Shown one piece after another: positions 8,984-49,886 of a stretch of DNA of 64,000 bases. The notes under the pieces were generated by a model. The model ran no database searches. It saw only the letters and a list, made by a program, of their open reading frames with translations, and was not told where the DNA came from. Made by a program: the position numbers and the translations under genes. Position 1 is the first letter of the stretch. Each line of letters starts with the position of its first letter. The DNA is from Psychrobacter immobilis (GTDB lineage Bacteria > Pseudomonadota > Gammaproteobacteria > Pseudomonadales > Moraxellaceae). The DNA lies in the NCBI GenBank assembly GCA_904846145.1, contig CAJGZL010000001.1:1240001-1304000 (forward strand). Direction: 5' to 3'.

Positions 8984-10636
8984 TTATAACCGCCCTGCTT
9001 GCTGCAGCGCTTGCTGCAATACGATACTGTCATCAAAGTCATGACGCACGCCATGGATCTCTTGATAAGTCTCATGGCCTTTGCCTGCGATAACTACGAT
9101 ATCATCTACGCCTGCATGATTAACCGCATATTCAATCGCTTGTCTGCGAGCAGGCTCGATATAGGTACGCTGATATTGCTCAGTGCTCATACCGACTTGC
9201 ATGTCTTGTAATATCTGCTTCGGATCTTCAGTACGCGGATTGTCGGCGGTCAAGATGACGCGGTCAGCACCTGCTAGACCTGCCTGCGCCATCAATGGAC
9301 GCTTGCCGCTATCACGATCACCGCCGCAGCCGAACACTGCCCATAACTGACCTTTACAATGCGTTTTTAGACTAGCGAGCACTTGGCTGAGGGCATCAGG
9401 CGTGTGCGCGTAATCGACTATAAAACAGCCGTCGTTAGATGCCACGCGCTGCATCCGTCCGACAGCACCTTGCAGCTGTGGTACTAGCTTGGCTACCTGC
9501 TCAATATCTATACCAAGTGCGACTACAGCACCGATAGCGGCTAGTAGATTAGCCACATTAAAACGCCCTAATAAGGGGCTAACTACGGTTATATCCGTCG
9601 TTTGAGTATCAGCGATTTGGGTGCGTAAAGTGATCTTTACCCCCTCCAAACTCGGTTCAATATCAGTGGCGACAAAGGTAGCTTGCGCTGAGGGCTGTAA
9701 GCTATACGTCCAGACTGTTAGATTGCTGGCATATGCCGTATCTAGCATCACTTGCGCATAGTTTTCACCATGAGCATCATCGATATTAATAATAGCGTGG
9801 GTCAGATCTGGAAAATAGCGACAATCAAACAGCTTCGCCTTTGCCGCGACATACTCATCCATATCAGTATGATAATCAAGATGATCACGACTAAGGTTGG
9901 TATAAATGGCAACTTTTATAGGCACGCCTTGCAGACGCTGCTGATCAAGGCCGTGCGAGCTGGCCTCAAGCGCTAATAGATCGGCGCTTTCTACACCCAT
10001 CTGATGTAAGAACTGCTGCACTGCCAAGGCATCGCCTGTGGTATGGCTAGCTTGTACCAAAGCGCCCAGTCTGCCATTGCCTGCTGTACCCATAACGGCA
10101 CTGCTGAGTGACGCCAGCTGTGCTAATTGCGCAACCAATTGACTAATAGTGGTCTTACCATTAGTACCTGTCACGGCTACTACGCTCGGTAGGGCGACAG
10201 ACTGATGATACTGCAGCTTTGCTTGCGCTAAATCTCCCAATACATCACGAATATTAGGCACGTATAGCACAGGACAAGGTAGGTTGTCTAAATCCTGCGT
10301 GTTGTTAGCGGATTCATCATCAGTAGCTAGCAAAGCACTGGGCTCAATCTCAGATAAAATAAAGGCGGCTTGCGCGGCGGCTTGTTTAAGATACTCTGAA
10401 CTGGCTTGAGGATTTTGCGTTTGGCTAGTGAGCAAGACAAAAACGTCGCCTTTATTGACTTGCCGACTGTCTAAACAAAGCTGATGAAAAGGGATTTCAT
10501 TAATTGAATCTAGACCATCTGCTGCTCGAGCTATGCCTCTTAATGACTGATTTATCGTACTATCGCTACTACTGTCTATTAGCTGCTGCAAAGTCACACT
10601 ATCAAAAGTCACAGTATTATCAGAAGCTTGAGTCAT
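8984..10636 (-). CDS. murE: UDP-N-acetylmuramoyl-L-alanyl-D-glutamate--2,6-diaminopimelate ligase
   Basis: Mur ligase of 550 residues that adds meso-diaminopimelate to UDP-MurNAc-L-Ala-D-Glu. It shows the ATP loop AVTGTNGKTTISQL, the SHGLDQQRL and VDYAHTPDAL motifs, and DNPRTEDP, the motif that selects meso-DAP over lysine. The C-terminus has AGKGHETYQ. The open frame begins with a TTG at 10642; the ATG at 10636 sits seven bases after AGGA and is preferred. The protein is longer than E. coli MurE (about 495 residues), mainly through an N-terminal insert at roughly 75-120. Confidence 0.96.
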   Translation of the reverse strand: MTQASDNTVTFDSVTLQQLIDSSSDSTINQSLRGIARAADGLDSINEIPFHQLCLDSRQVNKGDVFVLLTSQTQNPQASSEYLKQAAAQAAFILSEIEPSALLATDDESANNTQDLDNLPCPVLYVPNIRDVLGDLAQAKLQYHQSVALPSVVAVTGTNGKTTISQLVAQLAQLASLSSAVMGTAGNGRLGALVQASHTTGDALAVQQFLHQMGVESADLLALEASSHGLDQQRLQGVPIKVAIYTNLSRDHLDYHTDMDEYVAAKAKLFDCRYFPDLTHAIINIDDAHGENYAQVMLDTAYASNLTVWTYSLQPSAQATFVATDIEPSLEGVKITLRTQIADTQTTDITVVSPLLGRFNVANLLAAIGAVVALGIDIEQVAKLVPQLQGAVGRMQRVASNDGCFIVDYAHTPDALSQVLASLKTHCKGQLWAVFGCGGDRDSGKRPLMAQAGLAGADRVILTADNPRTEDPKQILQDMQVGMSTEQYQRTYIEPARRQAIEYAVNHAGVDDIVVIAGKGHETYQEIHGVRHDFDDSIVLQQALQQAGRL

Positions 10637-10735
10637 GGGCAAATCCTAGACAAATAATAAAAATAGCCGTTAGCATAACTCGTTAAAAGGGTCGATGCAA
10701 AAAATAGGGTGAAATTAATTTATAAATTATTTAAC

Positions 10736-24222: not shown

Positions 24223-24512
24223 TAGTTAAGTATAACGTTGTATCAATTACAAGCGGACAGTGCGCGTAGGGTGCGCCCCGCGCACCATGATATATAGACC
24301 CATTCAGACCACGCTTAATATCAGCAAGTAAGTGATGCAAGAATTAGCCCTGATAGCAGCGGTTATCCTGACGGGCTAGGCGAATTGCAGGCGGTTGGTT
24401 TTGAGACGTTATCGAGTCAACAGGAACTGCTCAAGCCGTAGCGCCTGCCTCGCCTCGACTGGCAGATAGTAGCGAATAGCAGGATTAGCTTCCTCCATAA
24501 AAACATAGCTAA
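24223..24512. other. Intergenic region with palindrome and short ORF remnant
   Basis: Holds the palindrome at 24266. An open stretch at 24319-24441 on the plus strand (ISPDSSGYPDGLGELQAVGF core, ending LLKP) has protein-like composition but no start codon. It may be the tail of a lost gene. Confidence 0.35.
24266..24290. repeat. Dispersed palindrome, GGTGCG type (copy 3, degenerate)
   Basis: GTAGGGTGCGCCCCGCGCACCATGA keeps the CTACCC/GGTGCG arms seen at 17089 and 17573. Confidence 0.55.
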
Positions 24513-45782: not shown

Positions 45783-45788
45783 TATTGA

Positions 45789-45858
45789 AACTAATAATAC
45801 ACATATCGGAAAGGTGTATTATTAGTTGATGATAGACCACAATAATTTAATGATCGGC
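45789..45858. ncRNA. Conserved-loop hairpin element, copy 1
   Basis: AACTAATAATACAC and GTGTATTATTAGTT form a perfect 14-bp stem around ATATCGGAAAG. Downstream GAT...CAC...TTTAATGATCGGC is shared with copy 2 at 49027-49095, aligned without gaps. Which strand is transcribed is unknown. It may be a structured RNA or a REP-like DNA repeat. Confidence 0.5.
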
Positions 45859-45871
45859 TTTAAGCCAATTA

Positions 45872-47263
45872 CTAAGCCACGTTGATCTCTGGATTCTCTC
45901 CTGATAGCTCTTCTTGCTCAACGTCATTATTCTTTTCCTTAGGCATAATCAAGCTCATCAAAATAGCAGAAATACCGGCAACAGTAACAGATGAGCTAAA
46001 AATACTTTTCATTAATGGTGGAAATGAATTAGTTATTTCAGGCACTGCAACCACACCAAGCCCTAAACCAAAAGAGACAGCCATAATGAGTAAGTCACGA
46101 CGGTCTAACTCAGCAGTCGCTAAAATACGAATACCTGCGGCAGCAACCGTACCAAATATCACTAAGGTTGCTCCTCCTAAAACTGGTTTTGGTATGGTTT
46201 GTAATACGGCACCAATAATCGGAAATAACCCAAGCAAAACAAGTAAACCCGCAACATAAAAGGCAACATAGCGACTTGCCACACCCGTTAACTGAATAAC
46301 CCCATTATTTTGACTAAAAGTCGACATTGGAAAACTGCCGAAGATAGCGGCTATACAAGAATTAACCCCATCACTTAATACACCACTTCTAATGCGATCA
46401 ACGTATACAGGCCCTTGTGTAGGCTCATTCGAAACGACAGAGTTTGCCGTTAAATCACCTGTGGTCTCAATAGCAGTTACTACTGAGATAATAGCTATGG
46501 GAATAAATGCCGCTAAGTCAAAGTTAAAACCATATTTAAAGGGCATAGGAACAGATATTAGTGCTGTATCAGGAATTGCAAAGGTAACCATTCCCATAAA
46601 GTAGGCAGTAATATAGCCAATTACCATACCGATCATAATACCAGAAAGGCGTAATATTGGATTATTAAAGCGATTCATGAAAATAACGGCAACTAATGTC
46701 ACCGCGCCGACAATCACAAACTTTGCGGCACCAAATTCTTCATTACCAAAACCACCAGCGATATCTGTCATTCCTACTTCAAGTAACGATAAACCAATGG
46801 TAGTAATAACTATGCCAGTGGTCACAGGTGTTATTACATTTTTTAGTTTATGGATAAAACGACTTAAAATTATTTCAACGAAAGAAGCAAAGAAAGCAAC
46901 GCCAAAAATCATCGCTAAAATATCTTCTGGAGTACCACCACGGTTTTTCACAATAAAACCCGCAGCTAAAATAGCACTTAAAAAGGCGAAGCTTGTTCCT
47001 TGTACACAGAGTAGACCAGAGCCTATAGGACCAATGCGTTTAGCTTGTATGAAAGTACCAACACCGGAGACTACTAATGCCATTGAGATTAAATAAGGTA
47101 ACTCACTTCCTAATCCTAATGTACCGCCAATAACTAAAGCAGGGGTAATAATGCCAATAAAGCTGGCCAATATATGTTGCAAAGCAGCAAAAAAAGCTTT
47201 TTGTGGAGAAGGACGATCATGAAGACCGTATAACAATTCAGATTTTCTTCGTGGTGCGTTCAT
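45872..47263 (-). CDS. NCS2-family nucleobase permease, probably xanthine/uracil type
   Basis: Inner membrane symporter of 463 residues with about 12-14 helices. The NCS2 signature is QNNGVIQLTGVASRYV with the preceding FGSFPMSTFS; the ETTGD motif (AIETTGDLTANS) is the substrate-binding region. The early VQGTSFAFL segment with a His in helix 1 (LQHILASFIG) favours purine (xanthine/urate) over uracil transport. Pairing with 8-oxoguanine deaminase upstream supports a purine substrate. The C-terminal tail is acidic. Confidence 0.88.
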   Translation of the reverse strand: MNAPRRKSELLYGLHDRPSPQKAFFAALQHILASFIGIITPALVIGGTLGLGSELPYLISMALVVSGVGTFIQAKRIGPIGSGLLCVQGTSFAFLSAILAAGFIVKNRGGTPEDILAMIFGVAFFASFVEIILSRFIHKLKNVITPVTTGIVITTIGLSLLEVGMTDIAGGFGNEEFGAAKFVIVGAVTLVAVIFMNRFNNPILRLSGIMIGMVIGYITAYFMGMVTFAIPDTALISVPMPFKYGFNFDLAAFIPIAIISVVTAIETTGDLTANSVVSNEPTQGPVYVDRIRSGVLSDGVNSCIAAIFGSFPMSTFSQNNGVIQLTGVASRYVAFYVAGLLVLLGLFPIIGAVLQTIPKPVLGGATLVIFGTVAAAGIRILATAELDRRDLLIMAVSFGLGLGVVAVPEITNSFPPLMKSIFSSSVTVAGISAILMSLIMPKEKNNDVEQEELSGENPEINVA

Positions 47264-47605
47264 AGAAACCTCTATTAAATATATTTAACAAGGCATATTG
47301 AACATTCAATCATGGCACTGATAGCGACTATTTTTGTCAATGAAGCAGCAAAAAATCCTGTCTTGAGAACAGGTAAAGTAATCCTTTACTTATTTCGTCC
47401 TCGAAGCTGATGCTAAAACTGGCCCCAGCTATTTATAAGCAGTGTGCTGCAAATCTAGCCAAGGCATTAGAATTATCATTAGCATTAGAATCAATTTTTG
47501 CCTAGTCTGAACCCAGCTTTTACAGAGTAGCAGCTATCAACAGTGTCTATTGGTGAATGTCTAACACGTCCTAATTGTGTTTATATAATTTACATTCACA
47601 TATTT
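47264..47605. other. Spacer between deaminase and permease
   Basis: 342 bp with no supported ORF. It contains the terminator-like hairpin at 47350-47373; the rest should include the permease promoter. Confidence 0.5.
47350..47373 (-). terminator. Terminator-like hairpin upstream of the permease
   Basis: CCTGT and ACAGG around a 7-nt loop, followed on the minus strand by ATTTTTT. It could end deaminase transcription or act as an attenuator in the permease leader. Confidence 0.5.
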
Positions 47606-48958
47606 CTAAGCATGTGCCAAATTCGCCGCTAGCGTAATTTGTTTTGCCATTAATTGATTAATGTCGACATCAACTACTTGACCTTCTAATACACGCCATT
47701 TACCGGCAACCATTACCTTATCTGCTTTAGTTGCGCCACAAAGTAATAGTGCTGCAACAGGAGATCCTGCACCTGCAAAGCGTATTTCATCAAGTTTAAA
47801 TAGCGCTATATCGGCTTGTTTACCTACCGCTATCTCCCCAATATCATCACGTCCTAAACATCCTGCTGAGCCTTTAGTGGCCCAATCAAACGCCTTTTGA
47901 TGAGTAATCTCTTTAGCGCCATAACGCAGACGTTGTAACAGTAAAGCTTGACGAACTTCACCAATCATATTCGAACCGTCATTTGATGCTGAGCCATCAA
48001 CACCAAGACCGACAGGGCAACCTGCCTCTTGTAGTGCAATGGTAGGACACTGCCCTGACGCTAATATCATGTTTGATGAAGGGCAATGAGCAATCCCTAC
48101 GTTAGCTGCCCCTAACCGTACTATTTCTTCATCATTAAAATGAATACCGTGTGCAAGCCACGTACGATTATTTAGCCAACCAACGCGCTCAAGATAGTCC
48201 ACAGGGCGCACACCAAACATCTTTATACAAAAGTCTGTTTCATCATGGGTTTCGGCCAAATGGGTGTGCAAGCGAACATCAAGATCTTGAGCTAAATCAG
48301 CCGTTGCTCGCATTAGCTCTTCACTAACCGAAAATGGTGAGCATGGGGCTAGTGCTATGCGGGTCATCGCGCCATCTTCATATTGATGATAGGCTTTAAT
48401 CAATCGTTGGCTATCCTCTAAGATTTCGTGATCTGTTTGAATGGTGGTTCTGGGAGGTAAGCCGCCCTGATCTTCACCTAAGCTCATTGAGCCACGGGTA
48501 AGGTGAACACGAATACCTAGTTTGGTTGCCTGTTCTACTTGAATATCAATAGCATGCTCTAAACCATTAGGAAATAAATAATGATGATCACTGGCTGTAG
48601 TACAACCAGAGAGTAGTAGTTCGCAAAGCGCTATTTGGGTAGATGTTGCTATCATTTCAGGGGTTAGTCTAGCCCAAACGGGATAGAGGCTTTGTAACCA
48701 AGGAAAGAGATTTTTGTTCAACGCGGCAGGAAAAGCACGGGTTAAGGTCTGATAAAAGTGATGGTGGCTATTGATTAAGCCGGGTATAAGAACGTGTTCA
48801 TGGGCATCGACTACTTCGTCAACCACTTGCAAAGGTTGTTCGCCAGCACTGATTAATTCAACAATAACATCATCTTGAATAACAATGCCACCCGCATAAG
48901 CTGGGTCTAAACAGTCGAGGGGATTTTTTATCCAAATTTTTTGAGATTTAACCTGCAT
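47606..48958 (-). CDS. 8-oxoguanine deaminase (amidohydrolase)
   Basis: 450-residue metal-dependent amidohydrolase that should deaminate 8-oxoguanine to urate. Metal and catalytic residues lie in GLINSHHHFYQTLTRAFP, the HTHLAETHDE segment, WLAHGIHF and GLGVDGSASND. The family signature with an early FPWLQSLYPVWARL fits this group within the AtzB/TrzN subfamily; other purine or triazine deaminases are alternatives. AGGAG precedes the ATG. A long structured leader lies upstream (49027-49095 and a hairpin at 48975-49015). Confidence 0.88.
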   Translation of the reverse strand: MQVKSQKIWIKNPLDCLDPAYAGGIVIQDDVIVELISAGEQPLQVVDEVVDAHEHVLIPGLINSHHHFYQTLTRAFPAALNKNLFPWLQSLYPVWARLTPEMIATSTQIALCELLLSGCTTASDHHYLFPNGLEHAIDIQVEQATKLGIRVHLTRGSMSLGEDQGGLPPRTTIQTDHEILEDSQRLIKAYHQYEDGAMTRIALAPCSPFSVSEELMRATADLAQDLDVRLHTHLAETHDETDFCIKMFGVRPVDYLERVGWLNNRTWLAHGIHFNDEEIVRLGAANVGIAHCPSSNMILASGQCPTIALQEAGCPVGLGVDGSASNDGSNMIGEVRQALLLQRLRYGAKEITHQKAFDWATKGSAGCLGRDDIGEIAVGKQADIALFKLDEIRFAGAGSPVAALLLCGATKADKVMVAGKWRVLEGQVVDVDINQLMAKQITLAANLAHA

Positions 48959-49352
48959 AGTAACTCCTAGTCATCAGGTTTAGGAAAGATTAAAAAAGTC
49001 TTAATCGCTTAAACCCGGATGTAGGAGCTACTGGCACACAAACCGGAAAGGTGTGAAGAGTAGTTGATTTAAAATCACGGCTATTTAATGATCGCCTCCA
49101 AATCATTGTTCATAAATATATTGGCAAAAAATAACTGCGTTGTCAATTATTAAATAAGTTTTGCTGTACTTTGCTATATTTAGTTCGATATAAAATCGAT
49201 ATACCTCATATCATAAAGTGGTTTAGGTAGATTATTCTCTATCCACAGCCTTGGCATAAAAATTTAGCTTACGCTCCCTTTTTTCAACAGGATATATCTA
49301 TCTTTAATTTTACTCTCGCCATTAGTATTTTTTTGAAATTTGTTAACAATGT
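48959..49352. other. Leader of the deaminase gene and LysR-side spacer
   Basis: On the minus strand, the first 150 bases before the deaminase ATG hold hairpin element copy 2 and a nested hairpin (GGTTTA..GATTAA / TTAATC..TAAACC, 48975-49015) just before the ribosome binding site. The remaining ~250 bp show nothing clear. Confidence 0.5.
49027..49095. ncRNA. Conserved-loop hairpin element, copy 2
   Basis: CTACT.GG.CACAC and GTGTG.AAG.AGTAG enclose AAACCGGAAAG, an 11-nt loop like copy 1 (ATATCGGAAAG). The trailing TTGAT, ATCAC and TTTAATGATCGCC also match copy 1. On the minus strand it lies in the 5' leader of the 8-oxoguanine deaminase gene. Confidence 0.55.
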
Positions 49353-49886
49353 TCAGATGGTCATGCTGCTTTGAATATCATTTTTGGCGCTAAAAGCAAT
49401 ATCTACGAATGCGCTTACTGTTGCGCTAACCTCATTTTTTTTAAATTGAATTTGTACTGGGATTTGCTTATTTACATTGTTTAAAGCTATAAAGTGACAG
49501 CCTTCGCTATATAGCTTTCGAACACAATACGGAGCTATCGCTACGCCTAATCCTGCTGCCACTTCGGTCACTAATGTTTGCACGTGTTTGGGTTGGCTGA
49601 CGATATTGGGCGAAAAACCTGCCTGTCTACATATCATGATGGTTTCATCAAATAGACCAAGAGCTTCATCACGATTAAAAATAATAAACTTTTCTTCTTT
49701 CAGCTGCGTCAAATCAATAGTTTTCTGACTCGCCAGCGTATGGCTCTGGTTCACAATAGCAACAAGCTGATCGATATAAACATTATGGCTGACAAAGTCA
49801 TCAGCAATAGCACTCAACAATGGCCTTGAAAAACCAATGTTGATACGGTCATTGTTGAACGCTTCTATTTGTTCGGTCACCTTCAT
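49353..49886 (-). pseudogene. LysR-type regulator lacking its DNA-binding domain
   Basis: 177-residue frame covering most of the LysR effector-binding domain (INIGFSRPLLSAI, VTEVAAGLGVAIAPY). The whole N-terminal helix-turn-helix and linker are gone: the sequence upstream is the 3' tail of a truC gene on the other strand, and the apparent ATG comes from that junction. It would not bind DNA. It was probably the regulator of the purine cassette or of a lost gene. Confidence 0.85.

Follow-up and report, generated by a model that had tools for sequence, protein, structure and literature searches.

Two related hairpins accompany an 8-oxoguanine deaminase gene and a xanthine permease-like gene in Psychrobacter immobilis, which raises the question of whether they are regulatory RNAs or DNA repeats. 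In the analysed stretch (64,000 nt of assembly GCA_904846145.1, contig CAJGZL010000001.1, positions 1,240,001 to 1,304,000; hereafter the window), both lie on the minus strand, where the deaminase gene with its leader, containing copy 2, comes first, the permease gene next and copy 1 last (Table 1). An initial annotation of this stretch had described both hairpins, their loops (ATATCGGAAAG and AAACCGGAAAG on the plus strand), the common trailing sequence ATTTAATGATCG and the location of copy 2 in the minus-strand 5′ leader of the deaminase gene, all of which were verified in the sequence, but the alignment of the two copies that it gave as gap-free needs one 1-nt gap. It had proposed a purine-related cis-regulatory RNA or, alternatively, a repetitive extragenic palindromic (REP)-like repeat. 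The relevant strand is the minus strand, on which the unit extends from roughly 49104 down to 48964, where the ribosome binding site lies, and comparison with homologous leaders suggests that the copy 2 leader is probably a riboswitch belonging to an as yet uncatalogued class, which would control deaminase translation. No gene now present has copy 1 as its leader, a limit to the cis-regulatory reading.

The distribution of the leader was determined with pattern scans and covariance models. Strong matches were obtained in 22 genomes, comprising four of the window genus, four of Shewanella and 14 from the order of Shewanella, and in all 22 the leader stands directly upstream of the 8-oxoguanine deaminase gene. 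The recurrent upstream placement near purine genes by which the initial annotation wished to see the RNA reading tested was therefore found, in every case at one gene. Each genome has a single strong match except the two of the window species, which add copy 1, and these two copies 1 are the only strong matches away from a deaminase leader. Within the genus, a close deaminase is encoded by 3/72 genomes (among 116 genomes searched), namely the window genome (100% identity), G057 (95%) and G028 (88%), and all three carry the motif in the deaminase leader. Model R1, built on three copies, matched strongly in 4/105 genus genomes (the window genome G000, its same-species partner G148, G057 and G028); five further weak matches (L095-L099, E 0.008-0.39) were judged to be chance, L095 by gene reading and the others by sequence. 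Over 390 genomes of the window's order, R1 matched the window genome only. A pattern scan across 84,980 species genomes returned 10 matches. Two of them, in Shewanella benthica KT99 and DSM 8812, stand before the deaminase; the other eight were judged from their flanking DNA to be chance. With model R2, 4/129 genomes of Shewanella, the genus of G848, were matched upstream of the deaminase, and with model R3 18/394 genomes of the order of G848 were matched, in 16 of which (14 new) the match precedes the deaminase; the weak R3 matches L158 and L159 (E 0.0024 and 0.0075) are not leaders and do not precede a deaminase gene. The searches at order and class level drew even samples of genomes and filtered strictly, which makes this distribution a lower bound.

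The association extends to one clade of the enzyme. In a 27-protein tree, the leader-bearing deaminases form one side of a branch with a support of 100/100, and the leader was not found at the nine tree deaminases outside that branch. Nor was it found in 35 loci of more distant deaminases (about 33-66% identical; some loci overlap and a few end early upstream), in which one match at E = 0.42 was obtained, or at the deaminase in a Pantoea record and two Vibrio records.

These counts bear on whether the hairpins act as DNA, either as a transcription factor operator or as a mobile or REP-like repeat, a reading suggested by the inverted repeats and by two direct copies flanking the cassette. The pattern scan found two copies in the window genome, both reverse and none forward, and the covariance model likewise gave two; a 141-nt query around copy 1 also recovered copy 2 (blastn, E = 0.0025 for the genome). 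A plasmid nucleotide search gave no match to copy 1 and two short matches at E = 0.4 to the copy 2 leader, judged to be chance, and in viral contigs one pattern match unlike the leader was found, with none for a second pattern and no deaminase relative. The REP-like or mobile repeat was ruled out, since there are two copies only, on one strand, rather than copies scattered in both orientations. In relatives, moreover, the element always has one orientation just before one gene, and its main helix, P1, has had both arms replaced while remaining complementary, which is hard to reconcile with sequence-specific binding of double-stranded DNA. A DNA element of either kind is accordingly regarded as highly improbable.

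Next to its distribution, the conservation of the leader argues for an RNA. Twenty-one leaders were compared, excluding the split one of G028, and 20 of them were aligned, excluding the identical copy of G148. They form group 1 (n = 11: the window, G057, two S. benthica, G874, G957, G1112, G1059, G1100, G1124 and G1074), drawn from the window genus, Shewanella and five other genomes, and group 2 (n = 9: G1294, G1302, G1226, G1072, G1057, G1334, G1286, G999 and G1199); the window deaminase shares 85-88% identity with its group-1 counterparts from outside the genus and 72-74% with those of group 2. The P1 sequence differs between the groups, for example CUAAUAAUGUAC/GUGCAUUAUUGG and CCCCUGACGUAC/GUGCGUCAGGGG, whereas in both the loop CUUYCCGGNUU is followed at constant spacing by a 3′ arm of 12 nt, a linker of 7 nt and the tail AUCCGG, so that the distance from loop to AUCCGG is 19 nt in 21/21 leaders although P1 has been rewritten. 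A further hairpin, P0, precedes P1 in most leaders; it is weak (-0.9 kcal/mol) in six rows, different, weak or unclear in G874, G1226, G1334 and G1074, and absent in copy 1. P0 was taken from single folds because MAFFT shifts one of its bases in G874. A leader peptide was also considered and rejected: an upstream frame is open in G874, but the matching stretch of copy 2 contains a TAG, and the peptide is therefore not conserved. The excluded G028 leader is a natural disruption of the element, in which an insertion with a transposase, which we take to be of the IS630 type, interrupts the leader stem in its 3′ half (L067, about 9790-10640); the transposase reading frame recurs at L067 1633-2091.

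The stem change that preserves pairing, which the initial annotation had seen between the two copies, is real and grew into strong covariation once more sequences were added. Calculated on 14 distinct leaders, 91.1% of the P1 cells are paired, and 8/12 P1 pairs have changed on both sides and still pair. Compared with shuffle controls (n = 500), which ignore relatedness, both-sided changes occupy 24 cells vs 9.2 ± 2.2, and the covariation score is 0.528 vs 0.267, with 0/500 shuffles as high and slid controls at or below 0.194. RNAalifold found 11/12 P1 pairs unaided. The leader thus has a conserved, covarying RNA structure in a 5′ leader and a recurrent association with genes of one pathway (22/22 genomes), both of which are expected of a riboswitch, and it is the strong P1 covariation together with the placement before one purine gene that supports a purine-related cis-regulatory RNA. 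A conserved loop on a variable stem is also the usual look of a protein-bound RNA, and a protein or small RNA, instead of a metabolite, might recognize the leader through this loop; the invariance that the loop shares with a tail 19 nt away at fixed spacing suggests a compact fold, and we consider such a partner unlikely.

The conserved core was not recognized as a known RNA family. In Rfam, neither element of the window was matched at the gathering score or, on both regions, up to E = 10, and the leader was not matched in nine loci of other genomes; weak microRNA and small RNA matches below the cut-off were taken as chance. Compact pseudoknot riboswitches are known in preQ1 and SAM-II, which the leader would resemble in a possible pairing between a hairpin loop and a 3′ tail governing access to the Shine-Dalgarno sequence; it differs from them in sequence, gene context and helix length, its pseudoknot is only putative and it has no Rfam match. 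The guanine-class (purine) riboswitch is a three-way junction with kissing loops, and its Rfam family had no match in the window or the nine other loci. With that class and its xanthine/guanine variants (PMC9295807) the leader would share the control of purine-related genes.

NMT1, the xanthine riboswitch class that the initial annotation wished to see tested first, belongs to the same pathway, and the leader could be a divergent member of it. In Proteobacteria, NMT1 serves purine catabolism, is also found upstream of genes resembling those for guanine and 8-hydroxyguanine deaminases, and in many cases acts translationally by sequestering the ribosome binding site (PMC7373994); by the same account it is an OFF switch, a two-stem hairpin with its conserved residues in the joining regions between the stems, whereas those of the present leader lie in an apical loop and a 3′ tail and its predicted default state is OFF. 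The NMT1 model RF03054 had no match in the window or the nine other loci, yet as a control it matched twice (45.6 and 39 bits) in the Pantoea stretch L160, so that identity with NMT1 is not supported and even a divergent membership is highly improbable. The two control matches are NMT1 riboswitches on opposite strands of Pantoea sp. At-9b plasmid pPAT9B01 (L160 7894-7950 and 8214-8269), near an 8-oxoguanine deaminase gene at which the new leader was not found. The motif was likewise not found in the literature searched, which left most subscription papers and all bioRxiv preprints outside, and its novelty is relative to Rfam 15 and that literature.

How the leader might control translation was then read from predicted folds. 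In 11/11 group-1 leaders the linker contains CUCC (CUCCUAC), complementary to the Shine-Dalgarno sequence, whose predicted unpaired probability is 0.00-0.03 in 10/11 of these leaders and 0.21 in that of G957. The default state of group 1 is thus predicted to be OFF, with the Shine-Dalgarno sequence hidden by the linker CUCC. A GGAGG stands upstream in 11/11 group-1 leaders, and its alternative pairing with CUCC lies 2.8 to 11.7 kcal/mol above the default fold (six leaders tried). As an essential part of the element this GGAG/CUCC closing helix was rejected: 9/9 group-2 leaders are without CUCC and 8/9 without GGAGG, the ninth having a GGAGG about 100 nt upstream, so the helix is at most a group-1 feature. 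The stable Shine-Dalgarno hairpin of group 1, and the occurrence of the leader in some carriers that we take to be cold-water organisms, would also fit an RNA thermometer in which this hairpin melts and the upstream hairpins merely aid folding. A thermometer needs no invariant loop, tail or spacing, and group 2 keeps all three without the CUCC linker, which leaves it very unlikely.

With the riboswitch as the preferred explanation, copy 2 would be the sensor part of a structured leader controlling deaminase translation. A purine, with 8-oxoguanine or guanine as first candidates and xanthine or urate next, may stabilize docking of the loop with the tail; docking would stretch the 7-nt linker along one turn of P1, so that the linker could not easily reach the Shine-Dalgarno sequence, and in group 1 CUCC may alternatively pair with the upstream GGAGG. 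The ribosome binding site would then be freed and the deaminase made when its substrate is present. The switch is probably translational and ON with purine, where ligand and direction are inferred. The specific form of this proposal, in which a new class would detect 8-oxoguanine (or guanine) itself and switch on the enzyme destroying it by means of a 12-bp helix whose loop docks with the tail one helical turn away, is tentative and rather doubtful as a whole. Because the gene association is so specific, with one enzyme and one clade, the list of ligand candidates is short.

Several observations weigh against the riboswitch and its mechanism. For P1, the number of further pair types does not exceed that of shuffles (16 vs 15.3), the number of pairs with both-sided change on a 7-row alignment was reached by 106/500 shuffles, and for the S. 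benthica leader the folding advantage over shuffles is slight (z = -1.5). Loop and tail could pair through CCGG in all leaders and through seven pairs in most group-2 leaders; 5/7 of these pairs never vary, none changes on both sides and one is broken in 7/14 distinct leaders. The pseudoknot is therefore a possible, nearly invariant pairing without covariation. Group 2 lacks the CUCC linker (0/9), and its ribosome binding site is only partly paired (unpaired 0.06-0.74); because the core is kept without this linker, the group-2 platform differs from that of group 1, although a conserved core with variable platforms is what a riboswitch would be expected to show. Folds with the tail held unpaired, read on the 18/20 leaders with a recognised ribosome binding site, clearly increased exposure only in G057 (0.58) and G957 (0.74); in G1112 the gain was slight (0.18), and in G1057 and G1199 exposure fell. 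As these folds rarely expose the Shine-Dalgarno sequence, the ON mechanism was not reproduced by folding.

The two copies in the window differ in their folds and apparently in their fate. Copy 1 is a perfect long hairpin, whereas the copy 2 stem is interrupted by an internal loop; on the minus strand, the hairpin region of copy 1 folds far better than shuffles (z = -4.7) and that of copy 2 alone no better (z = +1.1), and the longer copy 2 leader, including the hairpin at the ribosome binding site, folds better than shuffles (z = -4.0). In 14/15 loci outside the window's genus (L139, L140 and L163-L174) the order is permease, leader, deaminase, with the permease match of L169 falling in two pieces. 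In the fifteenth, S. benthica L141, an intact permease match was not found. The DNA before the leader in S. benthica L105 and L111 reads by eye like a permease C-terminal end, and with no intact permease in L141 the S. benthica permease seems to have decayed. No permease match was found in the 18-19.5 kb around the deaminase gene of G057 and G028, and a permease more than 61% identical to that of the window was found in just two of 105 genus genomes, both of the window species; two Shewanella permeases reach about 81%. Copy 1 occupies the expected site of a further leader, directly after the permease gene. It is without a tail, its loop has CCGAU where leaders have CCGGN, and a search for a deaminase remnant behind it found none, with one meaningless 12-residue match. 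Since relatives run permease, leader, deaminase, and here a leader remnant follows the permease without a deaminase, these sequence comparisons suggest that copy 1 is probably what remains of a permease-leader-deaminase unit that was rearranged or duplicated. Alternatively, it could be a working 3′ element of the permease transcript, a stabilizing or terminator-like hairpin, given its perfect stem, its energy far below shuffles and its retention in both genomes of the window species. That function is possible but doubtful: no T-run follows copy 1, the tail is missing, a loop base identical in 21/21 leaders is altered, and copy 1 lies at the site where relatives have the leader. In G957 (L140 1164-5990), genes named by eye as xanthine dehydrogenase-like subunits and XdhC-like lie divergently beside the permease-leader-deaminase unit, and these neighbours tie the unit to purine oxidation.

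The features of the locus are collected in Table 1. Upstream of the leader, 49353-49886 encodes a LysR-type regulator whose profile match covers the C-terminal part only; a DNA-binding half was not evident in the three frames just upstream, and the gene is therefore probably broken. Elsewhere in the window, Rfam Flavo-1 matched at 24342-24490 (42.5 bits vs a cut-off of 42). Flavo-1 is known from Bacteroidetes, so that this is probably a borderline false match.

Table 1. Coordinates of the leader, the copy 1 hairpin and the adjacent genes in the window.
Feature	Position	Strand	Basis or comparison
Whole conserved leader (copy 2), GGAGG region to Shine-Dalgarno	48964..49104	-	Homologous leaders in 21 other genomes
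Possible promoter TTGACA-N17-CAATAT	49118..49146	-	Read by eye; kept in G057 (CAAGAT) and G028
GGAGG, possible decoy partner of anti-Shine-Dalgarno CUCC	49095..49099	-	In 11/11 group-1 leaders; GGAG/CUCC pairing inferred
Hairpin P(-1), GGC...GCC	49079..49096	-	GGCUAG/CUAGCC and GGCUAU/AUAGCC in relatives; 9/11 group-1 leaders
Hairpin P0, UGAU...AUCA	49065..49077	-	UGGG/CCCA in G957, UUGAGC/GCUCAA in G1057; here weak, -0.9 kcal/mol
P1 (copy 2 hairpin), 12-bp helix bearing the conserved loop, here with internal loop	49028..49063	-	Comparison and covariation
Conserved 11-nt loop CUUUCCGGUUU, consensus CUUYCCGGNUU	49040..49050	-	
7-nt linker CUCCUAC, anti-Shine-Dalgarno	49021..49027	-	
Conserved tail AUCCGGG, may form a pseudoknot with the loop	49014..49020	-	Mostly invariant, without covariation
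Shine-Dalgarno AGGAG, hidden in predicted default fold	48964..48968	-	
8-oxoguanine deaminase gene	47606..48958	-	NF006055, 690 bits vs cut-off 532
Xanthine permease-like NCS2 transporter gene	45872..47263	-	TIGR03173, 423 bits vs cut-off 414
Copy 1, 12 nt past the permease stop codon, probable remnant of a second leader	45786..45859	-	
Copy 1 hairpin, perfect stem, loop CUUUCCGAUAU, without tail	45791..45825	-	Folding and leader comparison

If the copy 2 leader is indeed a riboswitch, the purine-sensing riboswitches would gain a further class. Comparison of the two leader groups, which have the core in common and diverge near the ribosome binding site, should help to elucidate the mechanism. 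An 8-oxoguanine ligand would mean that cells use RNA to keep watch on an oxidised nucleobase.

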